A stretch of DNA of 64,000 nt, taken from positions 868,001 through 932,000 of the forward strand of contig NZ_CP145732.1 in the NCBI RefSeq assembly GCF_036884845.1, in the 5' to 3' direction. The position numbers were made by a program, and so were the translations under genes. This document shows, one piece after another, positions 18,683 to 31,419 of the stretch (its first letter is position 1; the number at the start of each line of letters is the position of its first letter). This stretch comes from Pseudomonas sp. MAG733B (GTDB lineage: Bacteria > Pseudomonadota > Gammaproteobacteria > Pseudomonadales > Pseudomonadaceae). The notes below the pieces were generated by a model, which searched no databases, was not told the DNA's origin, and worked only from the letters and a program-made list of their open reading frames with translations.

Positions 18683-20350
18683 GTGACTAAATTTCGTGAC
18701 GTTGAAATCCGCGCTGCCCGCGGTAACAAGCTGACCGCCAAGAGCTGGCTGACCGAAGCGCCGCTGCGCATGCTGATGAACAACCTCGACCCGGAAGTCG
18801 CCGAGAACCCTAAAGAACTGGTGGTTTACGGTGGCATCGGTCGTGCGGCACGTAACTGGGAATGCTACGACAAGATCGTTGAAAGCCTGACCAACCTGAA
18901 CGACGACGAGACCCTGCTGGTGCAATCCGGCAAGCCGGTCGGCGTGTTCAAGACTCACACCAATGCACCACGCGTGCTTATCGCCAACTCCAACCTGGTT
19001 CCACACTGGGCGAGCTGGGAACACTTCAACGAACTCGACGCCAAAGGCCTGGCCATGTACGGCCAGATGACCGCCGGCAGCTGGATCTACATCGGCAGCC
19101 AGGGCATCGTCCAAGGCACCTACGAAACCTTCGTCGAAGCCGGTCGCCAACACTACAACGATGACCTGAAAGGCAAGTGGGTACTGACCGCTGGCCTGGG
19201 TGGCATGGGTGGCGCTCAGCCTCTGGCTGCAACCTTGGCCGGCGCTTGCTCGCTGAACATCGAATGCCAGCAGATCAGCATCGATTTCCGCCTGAAAAGC
19301 CGCTATGTCGACGAGCAGGCCACCGACCTCGACGACGCGCTGGCCCGCATCGACAAATACACCAAAGAAGGCAAAGCGATTTCCATCGCACTGCTGGGCA
19401 ACGCGGCTGAAATCCTCCCGGAACTGGTCAAGCGTGGCGTACGCCCGGACATGGTCACCGACCAGACCAGCGCCCACGACCCGCTCAACGGCTACCTGCC
19501 GGCCGGCTGGACCTGGGATCAGTACCGCGAACGCGCCAAGACTGAACCGGCCGCTGTAATCAAGGCCGCCAAGCAATCGATGGCCGTGCACGTTAAAGCC
19601 ATGTTGGACTTCCAGAAAATGGGCGTGCCGACCTTCGACTACGGCAACAACATCCGTCAGATGGCCCAGGAAGAAGGCGTGGAAAACGCATTCGACTTCC
19701 CAGGCTTCGTGCCGGCTTACATCCGTCCGCTGTTCTGCCGTGGCATCGGCCCGTTCCGTTGGGCTGCACTGTCGGGCAACGCTGAAGACATCTACAAGAC
19801 CGACGCCAAAGTCAAAGAGCTGATCCCGGACGACGCTCACCTGCACAACTGGCTGGACATGGCTCGCGAGCGCATCAGCTTCCAGGGTCTGCCGGCGCGT
19901 ATCTGCTGGGTTGGCCTGGGTCTGCGCGCCAAGCTCGGCCTGGCGTTCAACGAAATGGTTCGCAGCGGCGAGTTGTCGGCGCCAATCGTGATCGGCCGCG
20001 ACCACCTGGACTCCGGTTCGGTCGCCAGCCCGAACCGTGAAACCGAATCGATGCAGGACGGTTCCGACGCCGTGTCCGACTGGCCACTGCTCAACGCTTT
20101 GCTGAACACCGCAAGCGGCGCTACCTGGGTTTCCCTGCACCACGGCGGCGGCGTCGGCATGGGCTTCTCCCAGCACTCGGGCATGGTGATCGTCTGCGAC
20201 GGTACTGACGAAGCGGCCGAGCGTATCGCTCGCGTTCTGCACAACGACCCGGCGACCGGCGTTATGCGTCACGCCGATGCCGGTTACCAGATCGCGATCG
20301 ACTGCGCCAAGGAACAAGGGCTGAACCTGCCGATGATTACCGGCAAGTAA
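18683..20350 (+). CDS. hutU: Urocanate hydratase
   Basis: NAD-dependent lyase (555 aa) converting urocanate to 4-imidazolone-5-propanoate. The N-terminal [14 protein letters not shown], the nucleotide-binding [12 protein letters not shown] and the active-site stretch [11 protein letters not shown] (Cys about 408) are those of the family, and the length is normal. The start is GTG with GAGGAG about 8 bases upstream. Its leader is about 140 bases long from the predicted sigma-54 start, and HutC repression is predicted from the operator. First gene of the long catabolic operon or operon series running to hutG. Confidence 0.97.
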
Positions 20351-21970: not shown

Positions 21971-22039
21971 CTGGACGTGGACAGGGCTGGATGCCTCTTG
22001 ACTGCCGTAAGCCCATTCATGATTAGGAGCGTCAATACA

Positions 22040-23008
22040 ATGAAATCGAACAAGACCCTGCTGACCACTTTGCTTTCCATGGGCCTGCTGGCCAGCGCCG
22101 GCGCCACTCAGGCGGCGGGTTGGTGCGAGTCGGGCAAACCGGTGAAATTCGCCGGCCTGAACTGGGAAAGCGCCATGCTCCTGACTGACGTGATGCAAGT
22201 CGTGCTGGAGAAAGGCTACGACTGCAAGACTGACAGCCTGCCGGGCAACTCCATCACCATGGAAAACGCCCTGGGCAGCAACGATATTCAAGTGTTTGCC
22301 GAAGAATGGGTCGGCCGTAGCGAAGTCTGGAACAAGGCCGAGAAGGCCGGCAAAGTCGTCGGCGTTGGCGCACCTGTAGTGGGCGCAATCGAAGGCTGGT
22401 ACGTGCCGCGCTACGTGATCGAAGGCGACGCCAAGCGCAAGCTGGAACCTAAAGCGCCGGACCTGAAAAACATTGCCGATCTGGGCAAATACTCCGCCGT
22501 GTTCAAGGACGCCGAAGAGCCATCCAAGGGCCGCTTCTACAACTGCCCGGCCGGCTGGACCTGTGAGCTGGACAACAGCGAAATGCTCAAAAGCTACGGC
22601 CTGGAAAGCACCTACACCAACTTCCGCCCGGGCACTGGCCCGGCGCTGGATGCCGCCGTGCTGTCGAGCTACAAGCGTGGCGAGCCGATCCTGTTCTACT
22701 ACTGGTCGCCAACGCCGCTGATGGGCCAGGTCGATGTGGTGAAACTCGAAGAGAAGCCAGGCGTGAACAAGACCGTGACCATCAAGGTCGGTCTGTCCAA
22801 GACGTTCCACGACGAAGCGCCAGAACTGGTCGCCGTGCTGGAAAAGGTCAATGTGCCAATCGACATCCTGAACCAGAACCTTGGCCGCATGACCAAAGAG
22901 CGGATCGAGTCGCCAAAACTGGCCAAGATCTTCTTGAAGGAACATCCTGAAGTCTGGCACGCATGGGTGAGCGAAGACGCAGCCAAGAAAATCGACGCGG
23001 CCTTGTAG
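22040..23008 (+). CDS. hutX: Histidine ABC transporter periplasmic binding protein
   Basis: ProX/glycine-betaine-type binding protein (322 aa). A signal peptide ends near GATQAAG, and the mature protein begins WCESGKPVKFAGLNWESA. The middle has FAEEWVGRSEVW and NFRPGTGPALD, and the late part YYWSPTPLMGQ provides aromatic ligand-cage residues. Among ProX-like proteins, those followed by HutW and HutV inside hut loci carry histidine. The frame is open upstream to 21977, but ATG 22040 has TAGGAGC correctly placed and directly starts the signal peptide. Confidence 0.9.
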   Translation: MKSNKTLLTTLLSMGLLASAGATQAAGWCESGKPVKFAGLNWESAMLLTDVMQVVLEKGYDCKTDSLPGNSITMENALGSNDIQVFAEEWVGRSEVWNKAEKAGKVVGVGAPVVGAIEGWYVPRYVIEGDAKRKLEPKAPDLKNIADLGKYSAVFKDAEEPSKGRFYNCPAGWTCELDNSEMLKSYGLESTYTNFRPGTGPALDAAVLSSYKRGEPILFYYWSPTPLMGQVDVVKLEEKPGVNKTVTIKVGLSKTFHDEAPELVAVLEKVNVPIDILNQNLGRMTKERIESPKLAKIFLKEHPEVWHAWVSEDAAKKIDAAL

Positions 23009-23078: not shown

Positions 23079-23930
23079 ATGTTTCCCGAAAGCTTTACCT
23101 TTTCCATCGCCGACTGGGTCAACGGTTGGGTCGATTCGCTGGTCACCAACTACGGCGACGTGTTCCGTCACATCTCCGACACCCTGTTGTGGGCCATCGT
23201 CAATCTCGAAAGCCTGCTGCGTGCGGCACCGTGGTGGTTGATGTTGGCCATCGTCGCCGGCGTGGCCTGGCACGCGACCCGCAAGGTCGTGACCACCGCC
23301 GTGATCGTCGGCTTGTTGTTCCTGGTGGGCGCGGTCGGCCTCTGGGACAAGCTGATGCAGACACTCGCGCTGATGATGGTGGCGACGGTCATTTCGGTAC
23401 TCATCGGCATTCCGCTGGGCATCCTTTCGGCGCGCAGCAATCGCCTGCGTTCGGTGCTGATGCCGCTGCTGGACATCATGCAGACCATGCCGAGCTTCGT
23501 GTACCTGATCCCGGTGCTGATGCTGTTCGGTCTGGGTAAGGTCCCGGCGATTTTCGCCACCGTGATCTACGCCGCACCGCCGCTGATCCGCCTGACCGAT
23601 CTGGGCATCCGCCAGGTCGACGGTGAAGTGATGGAAGCGATCAACGCCTTTGGTGCCAATCGCTGGCAGCAACTGTTCGGTGTGCAGCTGCCGTTGGCCC
23701 TGCCGAGCATCATGGCCGGGATCAACCAGACCACCATGATGGCCCTGTCGATGGTAGTAATTGCCTCGATGATCGGTGCCCGTGGCCTGGGTGAAGACGT
23801 GCTGGTGGGGATTCAGACCCTCAACGTCGGACGTGGCCTCGAAGCCGGTCTGGCGATCGTGATTCTGGCTGTGGTGATCGACCGCATTACTCAGGCGTAT
23901 GGTCGGCCACGGCATGAGGTGAGCAAATGA
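23079..23930 (+). CDS. hutW: Histidine ABC transporter permease
   Basis: Inner-membrane permease (283 aa) of the ProW type, with about six helices and the EAA loop around residues 185-205 (MEAINAFGANRWQQLFGVQL). It partners HutX and HutV. It is 70 bases downstream of hutX, and its TGA overlaps the hutV ATG by 4 bases, giving coupled translation. Confidence 0.93.
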   Translation: MFPESFTFSIADWVNGWVDSLVTNYGDVFRHISDTLLWAIVNLESLLRAAPWWLMLAIVAGVAWHATRKVVTTAVIVGLLFLVGAVGLWDKLMQTLALMMVATVISVLIGIPLGILSARSNRLRSVLMPLLDIMQTMPSFVYLIPVLMLFGLGKVPAIFATVIYAAPPLIRLTDLGIRQVDGEVMEAINAFGANRWQQLFGVQLPLALPSIMAGINQTTMMALSMVVIASMIGARGLGEDVLVGIQTLNVGRGLEAGLAIVILAVVIDRITQAYGRPRHEVSK

Positions 23931-24757
23931 ACAACGCAACCGTGAGCAAGATCGAAGTCAAAAACGTCTTCAAGATTTTCGGCAACCGTTCCAAGGAAGC
24001 GCTGGCCATGGTTGGCCAGGGCAAAACCAAAGAGCAGGTGCTGAACGATACTGGCTGCGTGGTCGGTGTGAACGACTTGTCCCTGAGCATCGGCAGTGGC
24101 GAGATCTTCGTGATCATGGGCCTGTCGGGTTCCGGCAAATCGACACTGGTACGGCACTTCAATCGCCTGATCGACCCGACCAGCGGCGCGATCCTGGTGG
24201 ACGGCGTGGACATCCTGCAATACGACATGGAAGCCCTGCGCGAATTTCGTCGACGCAAGATCAGCATGGTGTTCCAGAGCTTCGGCCTGCTGCCGCACAA
24301 GAGCGTGCTGGACAACGTTGCCTACGGTTTGAAAGTCCGTGGCGAAAGCAAAGCCATGTGCAGCGAACGTGCGCTGCACTGGATCAACACCGTGGGCCTC
24401 AAGGGCTACGAAAACAAATACCCGCATCAGCTCTCGGGTGGCATGCGTCAGCGTGTGGGCCTGGCCCGCGCCTTGGCGGCGGACACCGACATCATCCTGA
24501 TGGACGAAGCCTTCAGCGCCCTCGACCCGCTGATCCGCGCCGAGATGCAGGACCAGTTGCTGGAGCTGCAAAAGACCCTGCACAAGACCATCGTCTTCAT
24601 CACCCACGACCTCGACGAGGCCGTGCGCATCGGCAACCGCATTGCGATTCTCAAGGACGGCCGCCTGATCCAGGTCGGCACGCCACGGGAGATCCTGCAT
24701 TCGCCGGCGGATGAGTATGTCGACCGGTTCGTGCAGCGTCGGGCGGCGGTGGTTTAA
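23927..24757 (+). CDS. hutV: Histidine ABC transporter ATPase
   Basis: ProV-type ATP-binding subunit (276 aa). Walker A is GLSGSGKST, the Q-loop is FQSFGLLPHK, the signature is LSGGMRQRVGLARAL, and Walker B is IILMDEAFSALDP followed by the switch His in FITHDLDEA. The N-terminal stretch IFGNRSKEALAMVGQGKTK is typical of the ProV branch. No C-terminal CBS pair is present, unlike osmotically gated ProV/OpuA. Last gene of hutXWV; a REPIN follows. Confidence 0.94.
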   Translation: MNNATVSKIEVKNVFKIFGNRSKEALAMVGQGKTKEQVLNDTGCVVGVNDLSLSIGSGEIFVIMGLSGSGKSTLVRHFNRLIDPTSGAILVDGVDILQYDMEALREFRRRKISMVFQSFGLLPHKSVLDNVAYGLKVRGESKAMCSERALHWINTVGLKGYENKYPHQLSGGMRQRVGLARALAADTDIILMDEAFSALDPLIRAEMQDQLLELQKTLHKTIVFITHDLDEAVRIGNRIAILKDGRLIQVGTPREILHSPADEYVDRFVQRRAAVV

Positions 24758-24782: not shown

Positions 24783-24853
24783 TCTTCGCGAGCAAGCCCG
24801 CTCCCACATTTGGAGTGCGATTTTCTGTGGGAGCGGGCTTGCTCGCGAAGGCG
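24783..24853. repeat. Compact REPIN between hutV and hutH1
   Basis: Arms TTCGCGAGCAAGCCCGCTCC (24785 on) and its reverse complement (to 24849) enclose only about 17 bases. It is inverted relative to most copies in the window and lies within the hut gene series. Confidence 0.87.
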
Positions 24854-24890
24854 TCAGTAAAGCTGCATCAATATTTGGATGAGGTCAAAG

Positions 24891-26414
24891 ATGTCCCAGG
24901 CTGAAAAAATCGTTATCACCCAAGCGCAGGTCACCTGGCAGGACGTGGTCGCCGTGGCCCGCGATGGCGCGCAACTTGAGCTGTCGACCTCGATCTGGGC
25001 GCGCATCGAAAACGCCCAGGCCATCGTCCAGCGCATCGTCTCCAGCGGCGAACGCGCCTACGGCATCAACACCGGCCTGGGTGCCTTGTGCAACGTCTCG
25101 CTGCAGGACGAACAACTCAGCCAGTTGTCGCGTAATACCTTGCTCAGCCACGCCTGTGGCGTCGGCGCGCCGCTGACTAACGAGCAGACCCGCGCGATCA
25201 TGTGCGCCGCCGTCGTCAACTACAGCCACGGCAAATCCGGCCTGCATCGTCAGGTGGTTGAAGCGCTGCTGGCGCTGCTCAACCGCGGCATCACTCCGCA
25301 AGTGCCGTCCCAGGGTTCGGTGGGTTACCTCACCCACATGGCGCACATCGGCATCGCGCTGCTGGGTGTGGGCAATGTCAGCTATCGCGGGCAAATCGTT
25401 TCGGCTCAGCAAGCGCTGGCTGAAGAAGGCCTGCATCCGGTAAAGCTCGGCGCCAAAGACGGTTTGTGCCTGGTCAACGGCACGCCGTGCATGAGCGGCC
25501 TGAGCTGCCTGGCCATCGCCGACGCCACGCGCCTGCTGCACTGGGCCGACGTGATCGGCGCCATGAGCTTCGAAGCCCAGCGCGGGCAGATTGACGCGTT
25601 TGATGCCGAGATCATCGCACTCAAGCCGCACCCGGGCATGCAACAGGTCGGGATCAACCTGCGCGCCATGCTCGACGGCAGTGAAGTGATTGCAAAGAGC
25701 AAAGGTATTCGCACCCAGGATGCGCTGAGCATTCGCTCGATCCCGCAGGTGCACGGCGCCGCGCGTGATCAACTGGTGCACGCGATCAAGCAGATCGAAA
25801 CCGAGCTCAATGGCGCTACCGACAACCCGCTGGTGCTGGGCACTGCGGACAATTACCGCGTGGTTTCCCAGGCCAACCCGCACGGTCAATCCGTGGCGTT
25901 GGCGGCGGACCTGCTGGCCATCGCCATGGCGGAAATCGGCTCCATCGCCGAGCGTCGTCTGGACCGTTTGATCAATCCGCACGTCAGCGGTCTGCCGGCA
26001 TTTTTGGTGGCCAATCCGGGGGTGAACTCCGGGATGATGATCGTGCAGTACGTCGCCGCTTCGCTGTGCGCGGAAAACCGCCAGTTGGCGCAACCAGCAG
26101 TGCTCGATAACTACGTCACTTCGGGCCTGCAGGAAGATCACCTGAGCATGGGCACCAATGCCGCGCTCAAGCTGCATCGCGCCTTGGAAAACTGCACGCA
26201 GATCCTCGCCATCGAGTATCTGTTGGCGGCCCAGGCGTTTGAATTTTTGAAAGAGCAGCGCTTCGGCGCCGGCACCGATACTGCTTGGCGTCTGCTGCGT
26301 GAGCGGGTTCCGGCTTACGATCAGGATCGTTGGCTGGCGCCGGACATTGCCGCCGCTGCCGGCGTGTTGAAAGAAGCGAATTTGCTACACAAAGCTTTAC
26401 CGAACCTGAACTGA
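24891..26414 (+). CDS. hutH1: HutH paralogue lacking the MIO triad
   Basis: Full-length (507 aa) member of the histidine/phenylalanine ammonia-lyase fold. It keeps AYGINTG, SHACGVG, NGTPCMSGL, NPHGQSVA and SGLQEDHLSMG in the right order. The segment that should read [14 protein letters not shown] instead reads GSVGYLTHMAH (residues 142-152), three residues shorter and without the Ala-Ser-Gly that cyclises to the MIO electrophile. The canonical QDPYSLR is QDALSIR here, with Leu279 at the usual catalytic Tyr. Classical ammonia elimination is therefore unlikely. The frame is clean and the flanks conserved, so it is not a frameshift. ATG 24891 is chosen over 24879 as it follows GAGG by 6 bases. 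Regulator, isomerase-like or degenerate enzyme are all possible. Confidence 0.85.
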   Translation: MSQAEKIVITQAQVTWQDVVAVARDGAQLELSTSIWARIENAQAIVQRIVSSGERAYGINTGLGALCNVSLQDEQLSQLSRNTLLSHACGVGAPLTNEQTRAIMCAAVVNYSHGKSGLHRQVVEALLALLNRGITPQVPSQGSVGYLTHMAHIGIALLGVGNVSYRGQIVSAQQALAEEGLHPVKLGAKDGLCLVNGTPCMSGLSCLAIADATRLLHWADVIGAMSFEAQRGQIDAFDAEIIALKPHPGMQQVGINLRAMLDGSEVIAKSKGIRTQDALSIRSIPQVHGAARDQLVHAIKQIETELNGATDNPLVLGTADNYRVVSQANPHGQSVALAADLLAIAMAEIGSIAERRLDRLINPHVSGLPAFLVANPGVNSGMMIVQYVAASLCAENRQLAQPAVLDNYVTSGLQEDHLSMGTNAALKLHRALENCTQILAIEYLLAAQAFEFLKEQRFGAGTDTAWRLLRERVPAYDQDRWLAPDIAAAAGVLKEANLLHKALPNLN

Positions 26415-26531
26415 TTTCTACATAAGCCAGCGTGCCAAGGCGCCAGCCCCCCAAAAGGTGGGAAGCGACGGACAACGGACATCTCCGGAGCGTCTGGTTA
26501 GTTAATAAAAACTCTCAAAAGGAGAATGAAC

Positions 26532-28064
26532 GTGACTGCGCTTAATTTGATCCCTGGCCAACTGACCCTCGCCCAACTGCGTGAGGTGTATCAGCAACCG
26601 GTGAAACTGACCCTCGACAACAGCGCCTCGGCGCAGATCGAAGCCAGTGTTGCCTGCGTGGAACAAATCCTCGCCGAGAACCGCACCGCTTACGGCATCA
26701 ACACCGGTTTTGGTCTGTTGGCCTCGACCCGCATCGCCAGCGAAGACCTGGAAAACCTGCAGCGCTCGCTGGTGCTGTCCCACGCCGCCGGCGTCGGCCA
26801 GCCGATCAGCGACGAGCTGGTGCGCCTGGTCATGGTGCTCAAGGTCAACAGCCTGAGCCGTGGATTCTCCGGCATCCGCCGCGTGGTGATCGACGCGCTG
26901 ATCGCCCTGATCAACGCCGAGGTATACCCGCACATCCCGCTGAAAGGTTCGGTCGGTGCATCGGGTGACTTGGCGCCTCTGGCCCACATGTCGCTGGTAC
27001 TGCTGGGCGAAGGCAAGGCGCGCTACAAAGGCGAGTGGATGGAAGCCACCGAAGCGCTGAAAGTCGCCGGTCTGGCGCCGCTGACCCTGGCCGCGAAAGA
27101 AGGCCTGGCGCTGCTCAACGGCACTCAAGTATCCACCGCGTTTGCCCTGCGTGGCCTGTTCGAAGGCGAAGACCTGTTCGCCGGCGCCCTGGCGCTGGGT
27201 GGCCTGACCGTTGAAGCGGTATTGGGCTCGCGCTCGCCATTCGACGCACGCATCCACGCTGCCCGTGGCCAGAAAGGCCAGATCGACGCCGCTGCCGCTT
27301 ACCGCGATCTGCTGGGCGAGCGCAGCGAAGTGTCCGACTCCCACGAGAACTGTGAAAAAGTCCAGGACCCGTACTCGCTGCGCTGCCAGCCGCAAGTCAT
27401 GGGCGCCTGCCTGACTCAGTTCCGTCAGGCCGCCGAAGTGCTGGCCGTCGAAGCCAACGCGGTCTCCGATAACCCGTTGGTTTTCGCTGCCGAAGGCGAC
27501 GTGATTTCCGGCGGTAACTTCCACGCTGAGCCGGTGGCCATGGCCGCTGACAACATGGCTTTGGCCATCGCCGAAATCGGCTCCCTGAGCGAGCGTCGCA
27601 TCTCGCTGATGATGGACAAGCACATGTCGCAACTGCCGCCATTCCTGGTGGCCAACGGCGGCGTGAACTCCGGCTTCATGATCGCTCAGGTGACGGCTGC
27701 CGCACTGGCCAGCGAGAACAAGGCACTGTCCCATCCGCATTCGGTGGACAGTCTGCCGACCTCCGCCAACCAGGAAGACCACGTATCGATGGCTCCGGCA
27801 GCGGGCAAGCGTCTGTGGGAAATGGCGGAAAACACTCGCGGGATTCTCGCGGTGGAATGGCTGGCGGCGGTGCAGGGTCTGGACCTGCGCAACGGTCTGA
27901 AGACGTCGACGAAGCTGGAAAAGGCTCGCGCCATCCTGCGTAAAGAAGTGCCGTTTTATGAGAAGGACCGGTTCTTTGCGCCGGACATCAATGCGGCGAC
28001 TGAACTGTTGGCTTCGCGTTGCCTGACTGAATTGGTTCCGGCCAAGTTGCTTCCAAGCCTTTAA
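26532..28064 (+). CDS. hutH: Histidine ammonia-lyase (canonical)
   Basis: Histidase (510 aa) that deaminates L-histidine to trans-urocanate. The MIO signature [14 protein letters not shown] is complete, with Ala143-Ser144-Gly145. Other catalytic parts are [25 protein letters not shown] (Tyr281), [13 protein letters not shown] and NQEDHVSM. An ATG at 26526 touches the ribosome site AGGAGA, so GTG 26532 (7 bases after AGGAG) is the better start. It follows the MIO-less paralogue by 117 bases and is often named hutH2 in fluorescent pseudomonads. Confidence 0.96.
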
Positions 28065-28192: not shown

Positions 28193-29398
28193 ATGAAAAC
28201 CCTCTGGCAACACTGCCACGTCGCAACCATGGCGCAAGGCGTCTACTCGAACATCGAGGATGCGGCCATCGTGACGTCCGGTGCGCTCATAGAGTGGATC
28301 GGCCCGCGCGCTGAACTGCCGGCGGGCGAGTACCCGGCGGTCAATGATTTGAACGGGGCCTGGGTCACGCCGGGCCTGATCGACTGTCACACCCACACGG
28401 TGTTCGGCGGTAACCGCAGCGGTGAATTCGAACAGCGTCTGCAAGGCGTCAGCTACGCGGAAATTGCCGCTGCCGGCGGCGGCATCGCCAGCACCGTACG
28501 CGCCACCCGCGCCGCCAGCGAAGACGAGTTGTTCGCCAGCGCCGCCAGGCGCCTGAAAAGCCTGATGCGCGATGGCGTCACCAGCATCGAGATCAAATCC
28601 GGCTACGGTCTGGACCTGGCCAACGAACGCAAGATGCTGCGCGTGGCCCGCCGCCTCGGCACCGAACTGCCGGTCAGCGTGCGCAGCACCTGTCTGGCGG
28701 CTCACGCCTTGCCGCCGGAGTACAAGGATCGCGCCGACGACTACATCGATCACATCTGCACCGACATGCTCCCGGCCCTGGCCGCCGAAGGGTTGGTCGA
28801 CGCGGTGGATGCGTTCTGTGAATACCTGGCGTTCTCGCCTGCTCAGGTCGAGCGCGTCTTCATCACCGCTCAGGAACTGGGCTTGCCGGTGAAACTGCAC
28901 GCCGAGCAATTGTCGTCGCTGCACGGTTCGAGTCTGGCAGCGCGTTACCACGCATTGTCCGCCGATCACCTGGAATTCATGACCGAAGACGACGCCATTG
29001 CCATGGCTGAATCCGGCACTGTCGCCGTGCTGTTGCCCGGCGCTTTCTACTTCCTGCGCGAAACCCAATTGCCGCCGATGGACGCTCTGCGCAAACACGG
29101 CGTGAAAATCGCCATCGCCAGCGACCTCAACCCCGGCACCTCGCCAGCACTGTCGTTGCGCCTGATGCTGAACATGGCGTGCACCTGTTTCCGCATGACC
29201 CCGGAAGAAAGCCTGGCGGGCGCAACGATTCATGCCGCTACTGCTTTGGGCATGGCCGACACCCACGGTTCGCTTGAACCGGGCAAGTTTGCGGACTTCG
29301 TCGCCTGGCAAATCGATCGTCCGGCCGACCTGTGTTACTGGCTGGGCGGCGACCTGGAAAAACGCGTCGTGCGCCACGGCGTCGAAACGAGTCTGTAG
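28193..29398 (+). CDS. hutI: Imidazolonepropionase
   Basis: Metal-dependent amidohydrolase (401 aa) that opens the imidazolone ring of 4-imidazolone-5-propanoate to give N-formimino-L-glutamate. [12 protein letters not shown] supplies the HxH metal pair, EIKSGYGLD and [13 protein letters not shown] the substrate region, KLHAEQLSS the third His, and [10 protein letters not shown] the metal Asp. The start is preceded by GGAGAC. The TAG stop overlaps the hutG ribosome site, indicating coexpression. Confidence 0.97.
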
Positions 29399-29408
29399 GA
29401 GATCTGTT

Positions 29409-30212
29409 GTGGATAAGGTTCTGAACTTCAAACAAGGCCGCGTGCCGCTGCTGATCAGCATGCCGCACGCCGGTGTGCGCCTGACGCCTGCGGTCGAAGC
29501 CGGGCTGATCCCCGACGCGAAAAGCCTGCCGGACACCGACTGGCACATCCCGCAGCTTTACGACTTCGCCGCCGAACTGGGCGCCAGCACCCTGGCCGCC
29601 GAGTACTCGCGATTTGTCATCGACCTGAATCGTCCGTCTGACGACAAACCGCTGTACGTTGGCGCCACCACCGGCCTGTATCCGGCGACATTGTTTGACG
29701 GAATTCCGTTGTTCCGAGAAGGGCTGGAGCCTTCGAAAGAAGAACGCGCGACGTATCTGGAAAAGGTCTGGACGCCGTACCACAGCACCCTGCAAAACGA
29801 ACTGGCGCGCCTCAAGGCCGAGTTCGGCTATGCGCTGCTGTTCGATGCGCACTCGATCCGCTCGATCATTCCGCATCTGTTCGACGGCAAGCTGCCGGAC
29901 TTCAACCTCGGCACCTTCAACGGCGCCAGTTGCGATCCACAGCTTGCCACTCAACTGGAAGCGATCTGCGCCGGACATCCGGATTACAGCCATGTGCTGA
30001 ACGGGCGCTTCAAGGGCGGCCACATCACCCGGAACTACGGCAATCCGGCCGAGAACATCCATGCCGTGCAACTGGAGTTGGGGCAGTGCACGTATATGGA
30101 AGAGTTCGAGCCGTTTCGCTATCGGCCGGATCTGGCGGAGCCGACGCGGGTGGTGTTGAAGGAGTTGTTGCAAGGGTTGTTGGCTTGGGGCGAAAAACAC
30201 TACCAGCGCTAA
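29409..30212 (+). CDS. hutG: N-formylglutamate deformylase
   Basis: Amidohydrolase of the formylglutamate family (267 aa) that yields glutamate and formate, completing the HutF/HutG route. PLLISMPHAGVRLTP at the N-terminus, LPDTDWHIPQLYDF, SRFVIDLNRP and LLFDAHSIRS carry the conserved His and Asp residues. The start is GTG at 29409, 7 bases after GGAG that overlaps the hutI stop. The frame extends upstream inside hutI and is ignored. Last gene of the hut series. Confidence 0.96.
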   Translation: MDKVLNFKQGRVPLLISMPHAGVRLTPAVEAGLIPDAKSLPDTDWHIPQLYDFAAELGASTLAAEYSRFVIDLNRPSDDKPLYVGATTGLYPATLFDGIPLFREGLEPSKEERATYLEKVWTPYHSTLQNELARLKAEFGYALLFDAHSIRSIIPHLFDGKLPDFNLGTFNGASCDPQLATQLEAICAGHPDYSHVLNGRFKGGHITRNYGNPAENIHAVQLELGQCTYMEEFEPFRYRPDLAEPTRVVLKELLQGLLAWGEKHYQR

Positions 30213-30319: not shown

Positions 30320-30471
30320 TTAAACCTCATCGCCACATTGAACAGTCGCCACTGTGCAAATCACGGTCGCCACAGTTCGCTTTTACCGCTCGTCTGCTGC
30401 GTAATGTTCTGGCCACGGTGCACAAAGACACCGGCCTCACAATAATCCGCTGCCGCACGAGACTCATCCCG

Positions 30472-31419
30472 ATGAAAAGACTGTTCACCCGCTGTCTCTC
30501 AATCTTCTGCGGCACCGCTCTGTTGAGCGCGGGAGTCATGGCCGCTGACGATGCCTCCTGTAAAGCCGTGCGCATGGGTGTGGTCAACTGGACCGACGTG
30601 ATTGCCACCAGCGGCATGGCCGATGTGCTGCTCAATGGCCTCGGCTATGAAAGCAAACAGACCAGCGCCGTGCAGCAAATCATCTTCGCCGGCATTCGCG
30701 ACAAGCGTCTGGACATCTTCCTCGGTTACTGGAAACCGGCGATGGACAAGAACATCGCGCCGTTCCTGGCCGCCAATCAGGTGAAGGTCCTGGACAAGCC
30801 AAGCCTGGCCGACGCCCAGGCCACTCTCGCGGTTCCTGACTACGTGGCGGCTGCGGGTTTGAAAACCTTCGCCGACATCGCCAAATTCAAAAACCAGCTC
30901 GGCGGCAAGATCTACGGCATCGAGCCGGGCAGCGGCGCCAACACCACGATCAAGACCATGATCGAAACCAATCACTTCGGCCTGAAGGACTTCAAACTGA
31001 TCGAGTCTGGCGAGGCCGGCATGCTCGCTGCCGTTCAGCGCGCGGTGAACCGCAAGGAGTTCGTGGTGTTCGTCGGCTGGACTCCGCACCCGATGAACAT
31101 CAACATGAAGATCGCCTATCTGACCGGCAGCGAAGACGTCTACGGGCCGAACGAAGGGGCGGCGACCGTCTCCACCGTGACCGCGCCGGATTACGCCCAG
31201 CGGTGCCCGAACGTCAATCGCCTGCTGGAGAACCTGACCTTCACCGCCGCCCAGGAAAGTCAGCTGATGGTGCCAATCATGGAGCGCCAGACGCCCCAGG
31301 ACGTCGCCAAAAAATGGCTGCGTGACCATCCGGAGGATTTGCAGCGCTGGCTGGCCGGTGTCAGCAGTTTTGATGGCAAGGACGGCGTGGCCACCGTTCA
31401 GGCCAGCCTGAAAAACTGA
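30472..31419 (+). CDS. Choline/quaternary-ammonium ABC binding protein, orphan
   Basis: Periplasmic ligand-binding protein (315 aa) of the ChoX/ProX-related OpuAC family, with a signal peptide ending near GVMAAD. Aromatic-box candidates sit where ChoX has them: NWTDV, GYWKP, PDYVAA and VGWTPHPMN. IEPGSGANTTIK is a family hallmark. No permease or ATPase gene is adjacent, as for the orphan CaiX and BetX proteins of pseudomonads that share the Cbc core transporter. Choline, betaine or carnitine is the likely ligand, though position after hut genes leaves an imidazole ligand possible. The start at 30472 leads straight into the signal peptide. Confidence 0.85.
   Translation: MKRLFTRCLSIFCGTALLSAGVMAADDASCKAVRMGVVNWTDVIATSGMADVLLNGLGYESKQTSAVQQIIFAGIRDKRLDIFLGYWKPAMDKNIAPFLAANQVKVLDKPSLADAQATLAVPDYVAAAGLKTFADIAKFKNQLGGKIYGIEPGSGANTTIKTMIETNHFGLKDFKLIESGEAGMLAAVQRAVNRKEFVVFVGWTPHPMNINMKIAYLTGSEDVYGPNEGAATVSTVTAPDYAQRCPNVNRLLENLTFTAAQESQLMVPIMERQTPQDVAKKWLRDHPEDLQRWLAGVSSFDGKDGVATVQASLKN

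Follow-up and report, generated by a model that had tools for sequence, protein, structure and literature searches.

A MIO-free HutH paralogue in Pseudomonas hut operons is a candidate lyase for a second substrate, possibly hercynine

Introduction

Histidine ammonia-lyase (HAL, EC 4.3.1.3; P. putida structure, PDB 1b8f) carries an Ala-Ser-Gly triad that forms its self-made MIO cofactor, and binds its substrate through a set of residues that we take to be Tyr53, His83, Asn195, Gln277, Arg283 and Glu414. A sequence-only reading of the locus described here had assumed that MIO is needed by all characterised members of this superfamily. That assumption is too strong: among the characterised members, the ergothionase of T. 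denticola (PDB 6s7j) has no MIO, and it frees trimethylamine from ergothioneine, a thiolated histidine betaine (PMC13405746).

A second HutH-type protein, HutH1, is encoded in the hut locus of P. fluorescens SBW25, where hutTu and hutXWV lie between hutU and hutH, and the gene studied here occupies the same position. The accessible portion of the SBW25 account says that hutH1 is not required for growth on histidine, reports that HutXWV takes part in histidine uptake, and makes no mention of a missing MIO or of another substrate (PMC8871633).

Results

An intact hutH1 lies between the importer genes and canonical hutH

We analysed a 64,000-nucleotide stretch of DNA from Pseudomonas sp. MAG733B (the window), in which all features given below lie on the forward strand. 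The hut locus contains hutU (18683..20350), encoding a urocanase that would take the predicted product of HutH1; an NCS1-type permease gene (PF02133; 20498..21970) at the hutTu position; hutX (21977..23008; ATG 22037 was used as the start for searches), encoding a substrate-binding protein of the glycine-betaine type (PF04069, OpuAC); the importer permease gene hutW (23079..23930), named by position after the SBW25 layout; and the importer ATPase gene hutV (23927..24757), directly upstream of hutH1. Directly downstream of hutH1 is hutH2 (26526..28064), a canonical histidine ammonia-lyase gene with the ASG triad, followed by hutI (imidazolonepropionase; 28193..29398) and a frame containing hutG (formylglutamate amidohydrolase; 29232..30212), whose true start lies further in. 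On sequence comparison, HutX retains two ProX tryptophans, which presumably contribute to ligand binding. Downstream of hutG, a second frame resembling a glycine-betaine-type binding protein was recognised by eye at 30418-31419.

The hutH1 frame (24891..26414) is clean and encodes 507 amino acids, and GGATGAGG at 24877 favours ATG 24891 as its start over the in-frame ATG 24879. The protein has the aromatic amino acid lyase fold, matches Pfam PF00221 with 555 bits and is 39% identical to the adjoining HutH2. It carries the loop GSVGYLTHMAH and the segment QDALSIR; its neighbour has Ala-Ser-Gly and QDPYSLR. The frame, the profile matches and the sorting of homologues described below identify it as a MIO-free HutH-type protein, and we predict that it is a lyase for a histidine betaine (hercynine). 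HutH1 scores just above the cut-off of the NCBIfam hutH equivalog TIGR01225 (542.2 against 539.15 bits) and is for that reason annotated automatically as a histidase. Named homologues among those listed are likewise labelled histidine ammonia-lyase or HAL/PAL/TAL family ammonia-lyase.

The 6.65-Mb host genome encodes three PF00221 proteins. The third gene (L003; G000:C1:976635-978038) retains ASG and is surrounded by acyltransferase, thioesterase and glycosyltransferase frames, as judged by eye; we take it to resemble the ammonia-lyase of aryl-polyene clusters, and it was set aside on these grounds. Between hutV and hutH1, at 24785-24849, two 24-bp REP-like sequences form a perfect inverted pair, which we assume to be REPIN-like; the arm or its core has one more copy elsewhere in the window.

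The MIO triad and adjacent pocket residues have been lost together

Alignment with P. putida HAL places Tyr146 of HutH1 (codon 25326..25328) at the position of Ala142, followed by deletion of Ser143-Gly144-Asp145. His149 (25335..25337) occupies the position of HAL Pro148. The loop reads GSVGYLTHMAH in the query and in each of the 120 homologues examined with it (121/121). We also assigned every frame longer than 400 amino acids in the fetched loci to a type by its similarity to HutH1 and HutH2 references whose loop had been masked, which gives a count of the Tyr and His free of motif circularity. The Tyr and the deletion occur in 167/167 distinct HutH1-type frames and the Ala-Ser-Gly triad in none of them, so the reported absence of the triad from an intact frame holds well beyond this one gene; ASGD is found in 172/172 HutH2-type frames. 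Three positions beyond the Tyr, 166 of the 167 HutH1-type frames have His, the exception being Salinicoccus (GSPGYLIYQSH). MIO loss is a fixed character of the clade and not a matter of chance.

Other pocket positions were counted in 47 dereplicated MIO-free proteins. Before dereplication the set held 188 HutH1 and 120 HutH2 proteins, of which only 34 and 12, respectively, were gathered by similarity or annotation; the remainder were gathered by loop motif, and counts of Tyr146 and His149 in this set are partly circular for that reason. The six residues that correspond to the HAL substrate-binding set are each invariant (47/47): Tyr57 (HAL Tyr53; 25059..25061), His87 (His83; 25149..25151), Asn196 (Asn195; 25476..25478), Gln276 and Arg282 (Gln277 and Arg283; both within QDALSIR, 25716..25736) and Glu415 (Glu414; 26133..26135). 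In contrast to this conserved set, HAL Tyr280 is replaced by Leu279 within QDALSIR (Leu in 46 proteins, Met in one), a count that is partly selected because loci L121-L200 were found with patterns including QD[AP]LS. A further loss, beyond those noticed in the sequence-only reading, is that of HAL Phe329, which is Pro330 in HutH1 (25878..25880) and Pro, Ala or Cys in 34, 9 and 4 of the MIO-free proteins. At the position of HAL Val386, which is Lys in ergothionase, HutH1 has Tyr387 (26049..26051), and Tyr is found there in 47/47 MIO-free proteins. MIO, Asp145, Tyr280 and Phe329 have thus all been lost together (n=47), and Tyr146, His149 and Tyr387 are among the residues newly fixed.

HutH1 proteins form one clade under purifying selection

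In a maximum-likelihood tree of 53 proteins, which kept the MIO-loop columns and did not contain 6s7j itself, the 34 MIO-free members, drawn from Pseudomonadota and Bacillota, form a single clade with support of 98/95 that includes neither canonical HutH nor the two ergothionase-like proteins (L116 and L117). The gene is under purifying selection. The median dN/dS is 0.092 for HutH1 and 0.061 for HutH2 (629/630 pairs usable; the HutH2 genes are partial, covering about 470 of 512 amino acids in most cases), and HutH1 evolves somewhat faster than HutH2 in 541 of the 629 pairs. Internal stops are absent among the best matches listed from Pseudomonas genomes; a further HutH1 set contains two irregular members, the match from G080 with a TAG in it and the short frame from G094 (481 amino acids). 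Relaxed selection and frequent truncation had been named beforehand as signs of a decaying copy: the first is not seen and the second is rare among the matches listed. A dN/dS of about 0.09, together with the open frames among those matches, rules out decay and confirms selective maintenance of a gene that the sequence-only reading had described as kept in the operon.

The MIO-free gene is present in about 280 of the 398 Pseudomonas genomes sampled, in which each species is represented once. This number is 387 genomes with a match minus 107 with weaker matches only (listed by eye); it rests on a gap in the best E-values, none of which falls between 1e-137 and 1e-102, and motifs were read in the fetched loci only. 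Relatives also occur in Rhizobium, Sinorhizobium, Aminobacter, Erwinia, Dickeya, Polaromonas, Pokkaliibacter, Priestia, Peribacillus, Melghirimyces and Salinicoccus.

MIO-free genes adjoin transporters of several kinds

We compared the surroundings of the MIO-free gene at 106 loci, mostly from Pseudomonas, scoring neighbours against reference transporters only. A transporter gene lies at most 400 bp from the MIO-free gene in 102 of them: hutV in 72, an amino-acid ABC ATPase in 20, a BCCT carrier in six, an MFS carrier in three and an NCS1 permease in one. The four loci with no reference transporter within this distance are L092, L096, L101 and L115, and at L101 the gene adjoins an efflux system. 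At 33 control loci of canonical HutH, scored by a different rule (1.5-kb flanks and no distance limit), we found hutU at 30, hutV at one, an amino-acid ABC gene on the other strand at one, nothing at two and BCCT at none. The controls leave out L201-L204, whose genomes proved to have a HutH1, and include L228 and L229, whose genomes have a HutH1 elsewhere.

BCCT is the betaine/carnitine/choline carrier family. Its members adjoin the MIO-free gene in two phyla, at four loci in Gammaproteobacteria (L104, L105, L107 and L108) and two in Bacillota (L123 and L124, from the genera Melghirimyces and Salinicoccus). All match PF02028 with E-values of 4e-115 or lower. They share 32-35% identity between phyla, and 25-29% with the one non-adjacent BCCT compared. 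The sites of the BetP aromatic cation box, which we take to be W189, W194, Y197 and W374, read W, Y, Y, W in five copies; the sixth, L124, covers the first part only. Where BetP has Tyr370, the four gammaproteobacterial copies have Asp and that of Melghirimyces has Glu. An OpuAC-type binding protein is encoded at the window locus and at L185.

Two genomes are especially informative. In G526, a genome rated 100% complete, the order is hutU-BCCT-MIOfree-hutI, and no canonical HutH was found at an E-value of 1e-60; the two other relatives found there at that threshold are an aryl-polyene-type lyase and a protein of the GSLGAA type, making the MIO-free protein the only lyase found in the hut operon. 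The sole urocanase found in Melghirimyces sits in a hutU-hutI-x-BCCT-MIOfree cluster, with canonical HutH on another contig. A Priestia plasmid has the order hutU-hutI-agmatinase family-two MFS carriers-MIOfree. Urocanase is present in all 29 HutH1 genomes tested. In Rhizobium and Sinorhizobium (L112 and L118) the MIO-free gene overlaps an ABC ATPase gene by four bases. Rhizobia and some other relatives have genes for demethylating oxidases close by: the N-methyl amino acid oxidase gene solA directly follows the MIO-free gene in L097 and L118, and a sarcosine-dehydrogenase-like gene lies nearby in L094, L098 and L112. Among the part of the neighbours looked at, no dedicated genes for trimethylamine oxidation were recognised.

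Discussion

HutH1 as a candidate hercynine lyase

The retention of the histidine pocket, the loss of MIO, the variety of importers and the presence of urocanase downstream in the pathway suggest a lyase for a derivative of histidine whose leaving group is better than that of histidine. Judged from sequence, HutH1 is probably a MIO-independent lyase that makes urocanate from some such derivative. Hercynine (Nα,Nα,Nα-trimethylhistidine, or histidine betaine) is the precursor of ergothioneine in fungi and actinobacteria. We propose it as the substrate since the hut operon takes urocanate and hercynine is the unthiolated analogue of ergothioneine; for hercynine specifically, our confidence is evenly balanced. 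We hold a similarly balanced view of the combined reading, that HutH1 may be a MIO-independent elimination enzyme by which a second substrate, likely hercynine, enters the hut pathway. It is also favoured by the ergothionase precedent, by the demethylating oxidases near the gene at some loci and by the reported dispensability of hutH1 for growth of SBW25 on histidine. The broadest form of the proposal is more tentative, falling just short of an even chance: that a hercynine trimethylamine-lyase goes unrecognised under the name of histidase in about 280 of the 398 Pseudomonas genomes and in relatives ranging from Rhizobium to Salinicoccus, as a second and MIO-free entry to histidine catabolism with a Tyr at the place of the self-made cofactor. 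The best reading may be of an enzyme that works like ergothionase yet belongs to a separate family.

We infer a substrate, a base, a cation cage and a reaction as follows. Hercynine or a close N-methylated histidine would be imported, and its imidazole and carboxylate would be held as those of histidine are in HAL, by Tyr57, His87, Asn196, Gln276, Arg282 and Glu415. A base, probably Tyr57, would take the beta proton, and trimethylamine would depart. MIO may be dispensable in such a reaction, since a leaving group that is quaternary from the outset is unable to form the usual amine adduct. Tyr146, Tyr387 and His149 would fill the space left by MIO, Tyr280 and Phe329 and make up a putative cage for the cationic NMe3 group. 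The pocket loops are poorly modelled, with a mean pLDDT of 71 for residues 141-150, 51 for 371-380 and 65 and 61 for 401-420. The resulting urocanate would pass to HutU and HutI and on to glutamate.

A substrate with a quaternary ammonium group is indicated by the BCCT neighbours in two phyla and by the binding protein of the OpuAC type. An OpuAC-type importer is no proof of a betaine, because HutXWV of SBW25 is reported to act in histidine uptake. It also counts against hercynine that the commonest importers other than HutXWV are amino-acid ABC systems (20 loci) and that MFS carriers are found at three Bacillota loci, neither kind being betaine-specific; most of the importers seen overall lack such specificity. 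Further points against it are the four loci with no reference transporter close by, the lack of recognised trimethylamine-oxidation genes among the neighbours looked at and the somewhat faster evolution of HutH1 than of HutH2.

The genetics of P. aeruginosa bear on the proposal as well. One study calls PA5093 'hutG' and describes a ΔhutG strain that, like the five other mutants made, grows poorly on histidine and on urocanate and can be complemented (PMC12772324). When the numbering used in that study is set against the gene order of P. aeruginosa PA7 (L131), PA5093 is the likely HutH1 homologue, so that either the 'hutG' label is a slip or the deletion has a phenotype that our hypothesis does not predict. 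If the gene really was deleted, the phenotype would speak against a side role for HutH1 that is confined to one substrate.

Alternative explanations

The alternative that survives best is a MIO-free lyase for Nα-methyl- or Nα,Nα-dimethylhistidine, imidazole-lactate or an N-substituted histidine, with urocanate still the product. Any imidazole derivative that is imported and ends up as urocanate would suit the genomic context, and the importers are varied (two ABC types, BCCT and MFS). SolA belongs to the N-methyl amino acid oxidase family and adjoins at two loci; together with the sarcosine-dehydrogenase-like neighbours, it means that a mono- or dimethylated histidine would fit too. We nevertheless think such a substrate unlikely, as carriers of the BCCT and OpuAC types indicate a quaternary ammonium group, and amines and alcohols are poor leaving groups when MIO is lacking.

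The sequence-only reading had offered a choice between a pseudoenzyme and a new MIO-independent activity, and the second fits better with an invariant pocket and varied importers. A pseudoenzyme binding histidine or urocanate, as a sensor, a chaperone or a subunit of the importer or of HutH2, would account for the absence of MIO, the tight linkage to importer genes and the four-base overlaps with an ABC ATPase gene. Yet the ligand site shows no erosion or drift, with its six binding residues invariant and the new Tyr146 and Tyr387 fixed, and the carriers differ so much, down to single-gene BCCT and MFS types, that no single conserved partner emerges. Purifying selection and the retention of the histidine-binding residues mean that HutH1 is not decaying and is probably not a pseudoenzyme, and we rate this role as unlikely, slightly more so than the preceding alternative. 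The hetero-oligomer with HutH2 that had been suggested is disfavoured as an obligate state by G526, where no canonical HutH partner was found.

A histidase that obtains MIO by another route, or eliminates ammonia without it, would explain the retained fold and histidine-binding residues. It is very hard to reconcile with the missing Ala-Ser-Gly triad, with a loss of activity of more than a thousandfold on mutation of the MIO Ser, as stated in PMC3903478, and with the poor growth on histidine reported for a P. aeruginosa hutH (PA5098) mutant (PMC12772324). Ergothionase proper, converting ergothioneine to thiourocanate, shares the fold, the absence of the MIO triad and a precedent for trimethylamine elimination, but is ruled out to a similar degree by its loop (SSIGE-GDITTLSH in 6s7j, with a one-residue deletion against three in HutH1), by its WNKDK segment and its Lys at the Val386 site (HutH1 has no WNKDK, and Tyr in place of Lys), by the greater similarity of HutH1 to HAL 1b8f (329 bits) than to 6s7j (217 bits), by the separation of its clade from the two ergothionase-like proteins and by hut neighbours that process urocanate and not thiourocanate.

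Implications

If HutH1 is a hercynine lyase, a gene listed as a dispensable histidase would be explained and hercynine would gain a bacterial catabolism. A systematic misannotation, passing the NCBI hutH equivalog cut-off, would also be exposed, along with a possible microbial source of trimethylamine. The enzyme would further provide a natural contrast for study of how the ammonia-lyase fold operates without its MIO cofactor. Our search of an open-access library yielded no publication on a hercynine lyase or hercynine catabolism and no MIO-free lyase beyond ergothionase.

Other relatives in the fetched loci

Two further kinds of relative were observed in the fetched loci. One, a MIO-free type found at L116:9992-11497 and L105:5010-6545, has the loops GSIGAA-DLAPLA and GSLGAA-DLAQLA, respectively. 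It has Lys at the ergothionase Lys site and lacks both the WNKDK segment and the counterpart of HAL His83; in Rhizobium, the gene adjoins hutC and a gene for a glycine-betaine binding protein. An ergothionase-like protein encoded on S. meliloti pSymA (L117:8001-9500) has 6s7j as its best PDB match, at 298 bits, with the loop GSVGQA-DMTLLS and Ala at the ergothionase Lys site.
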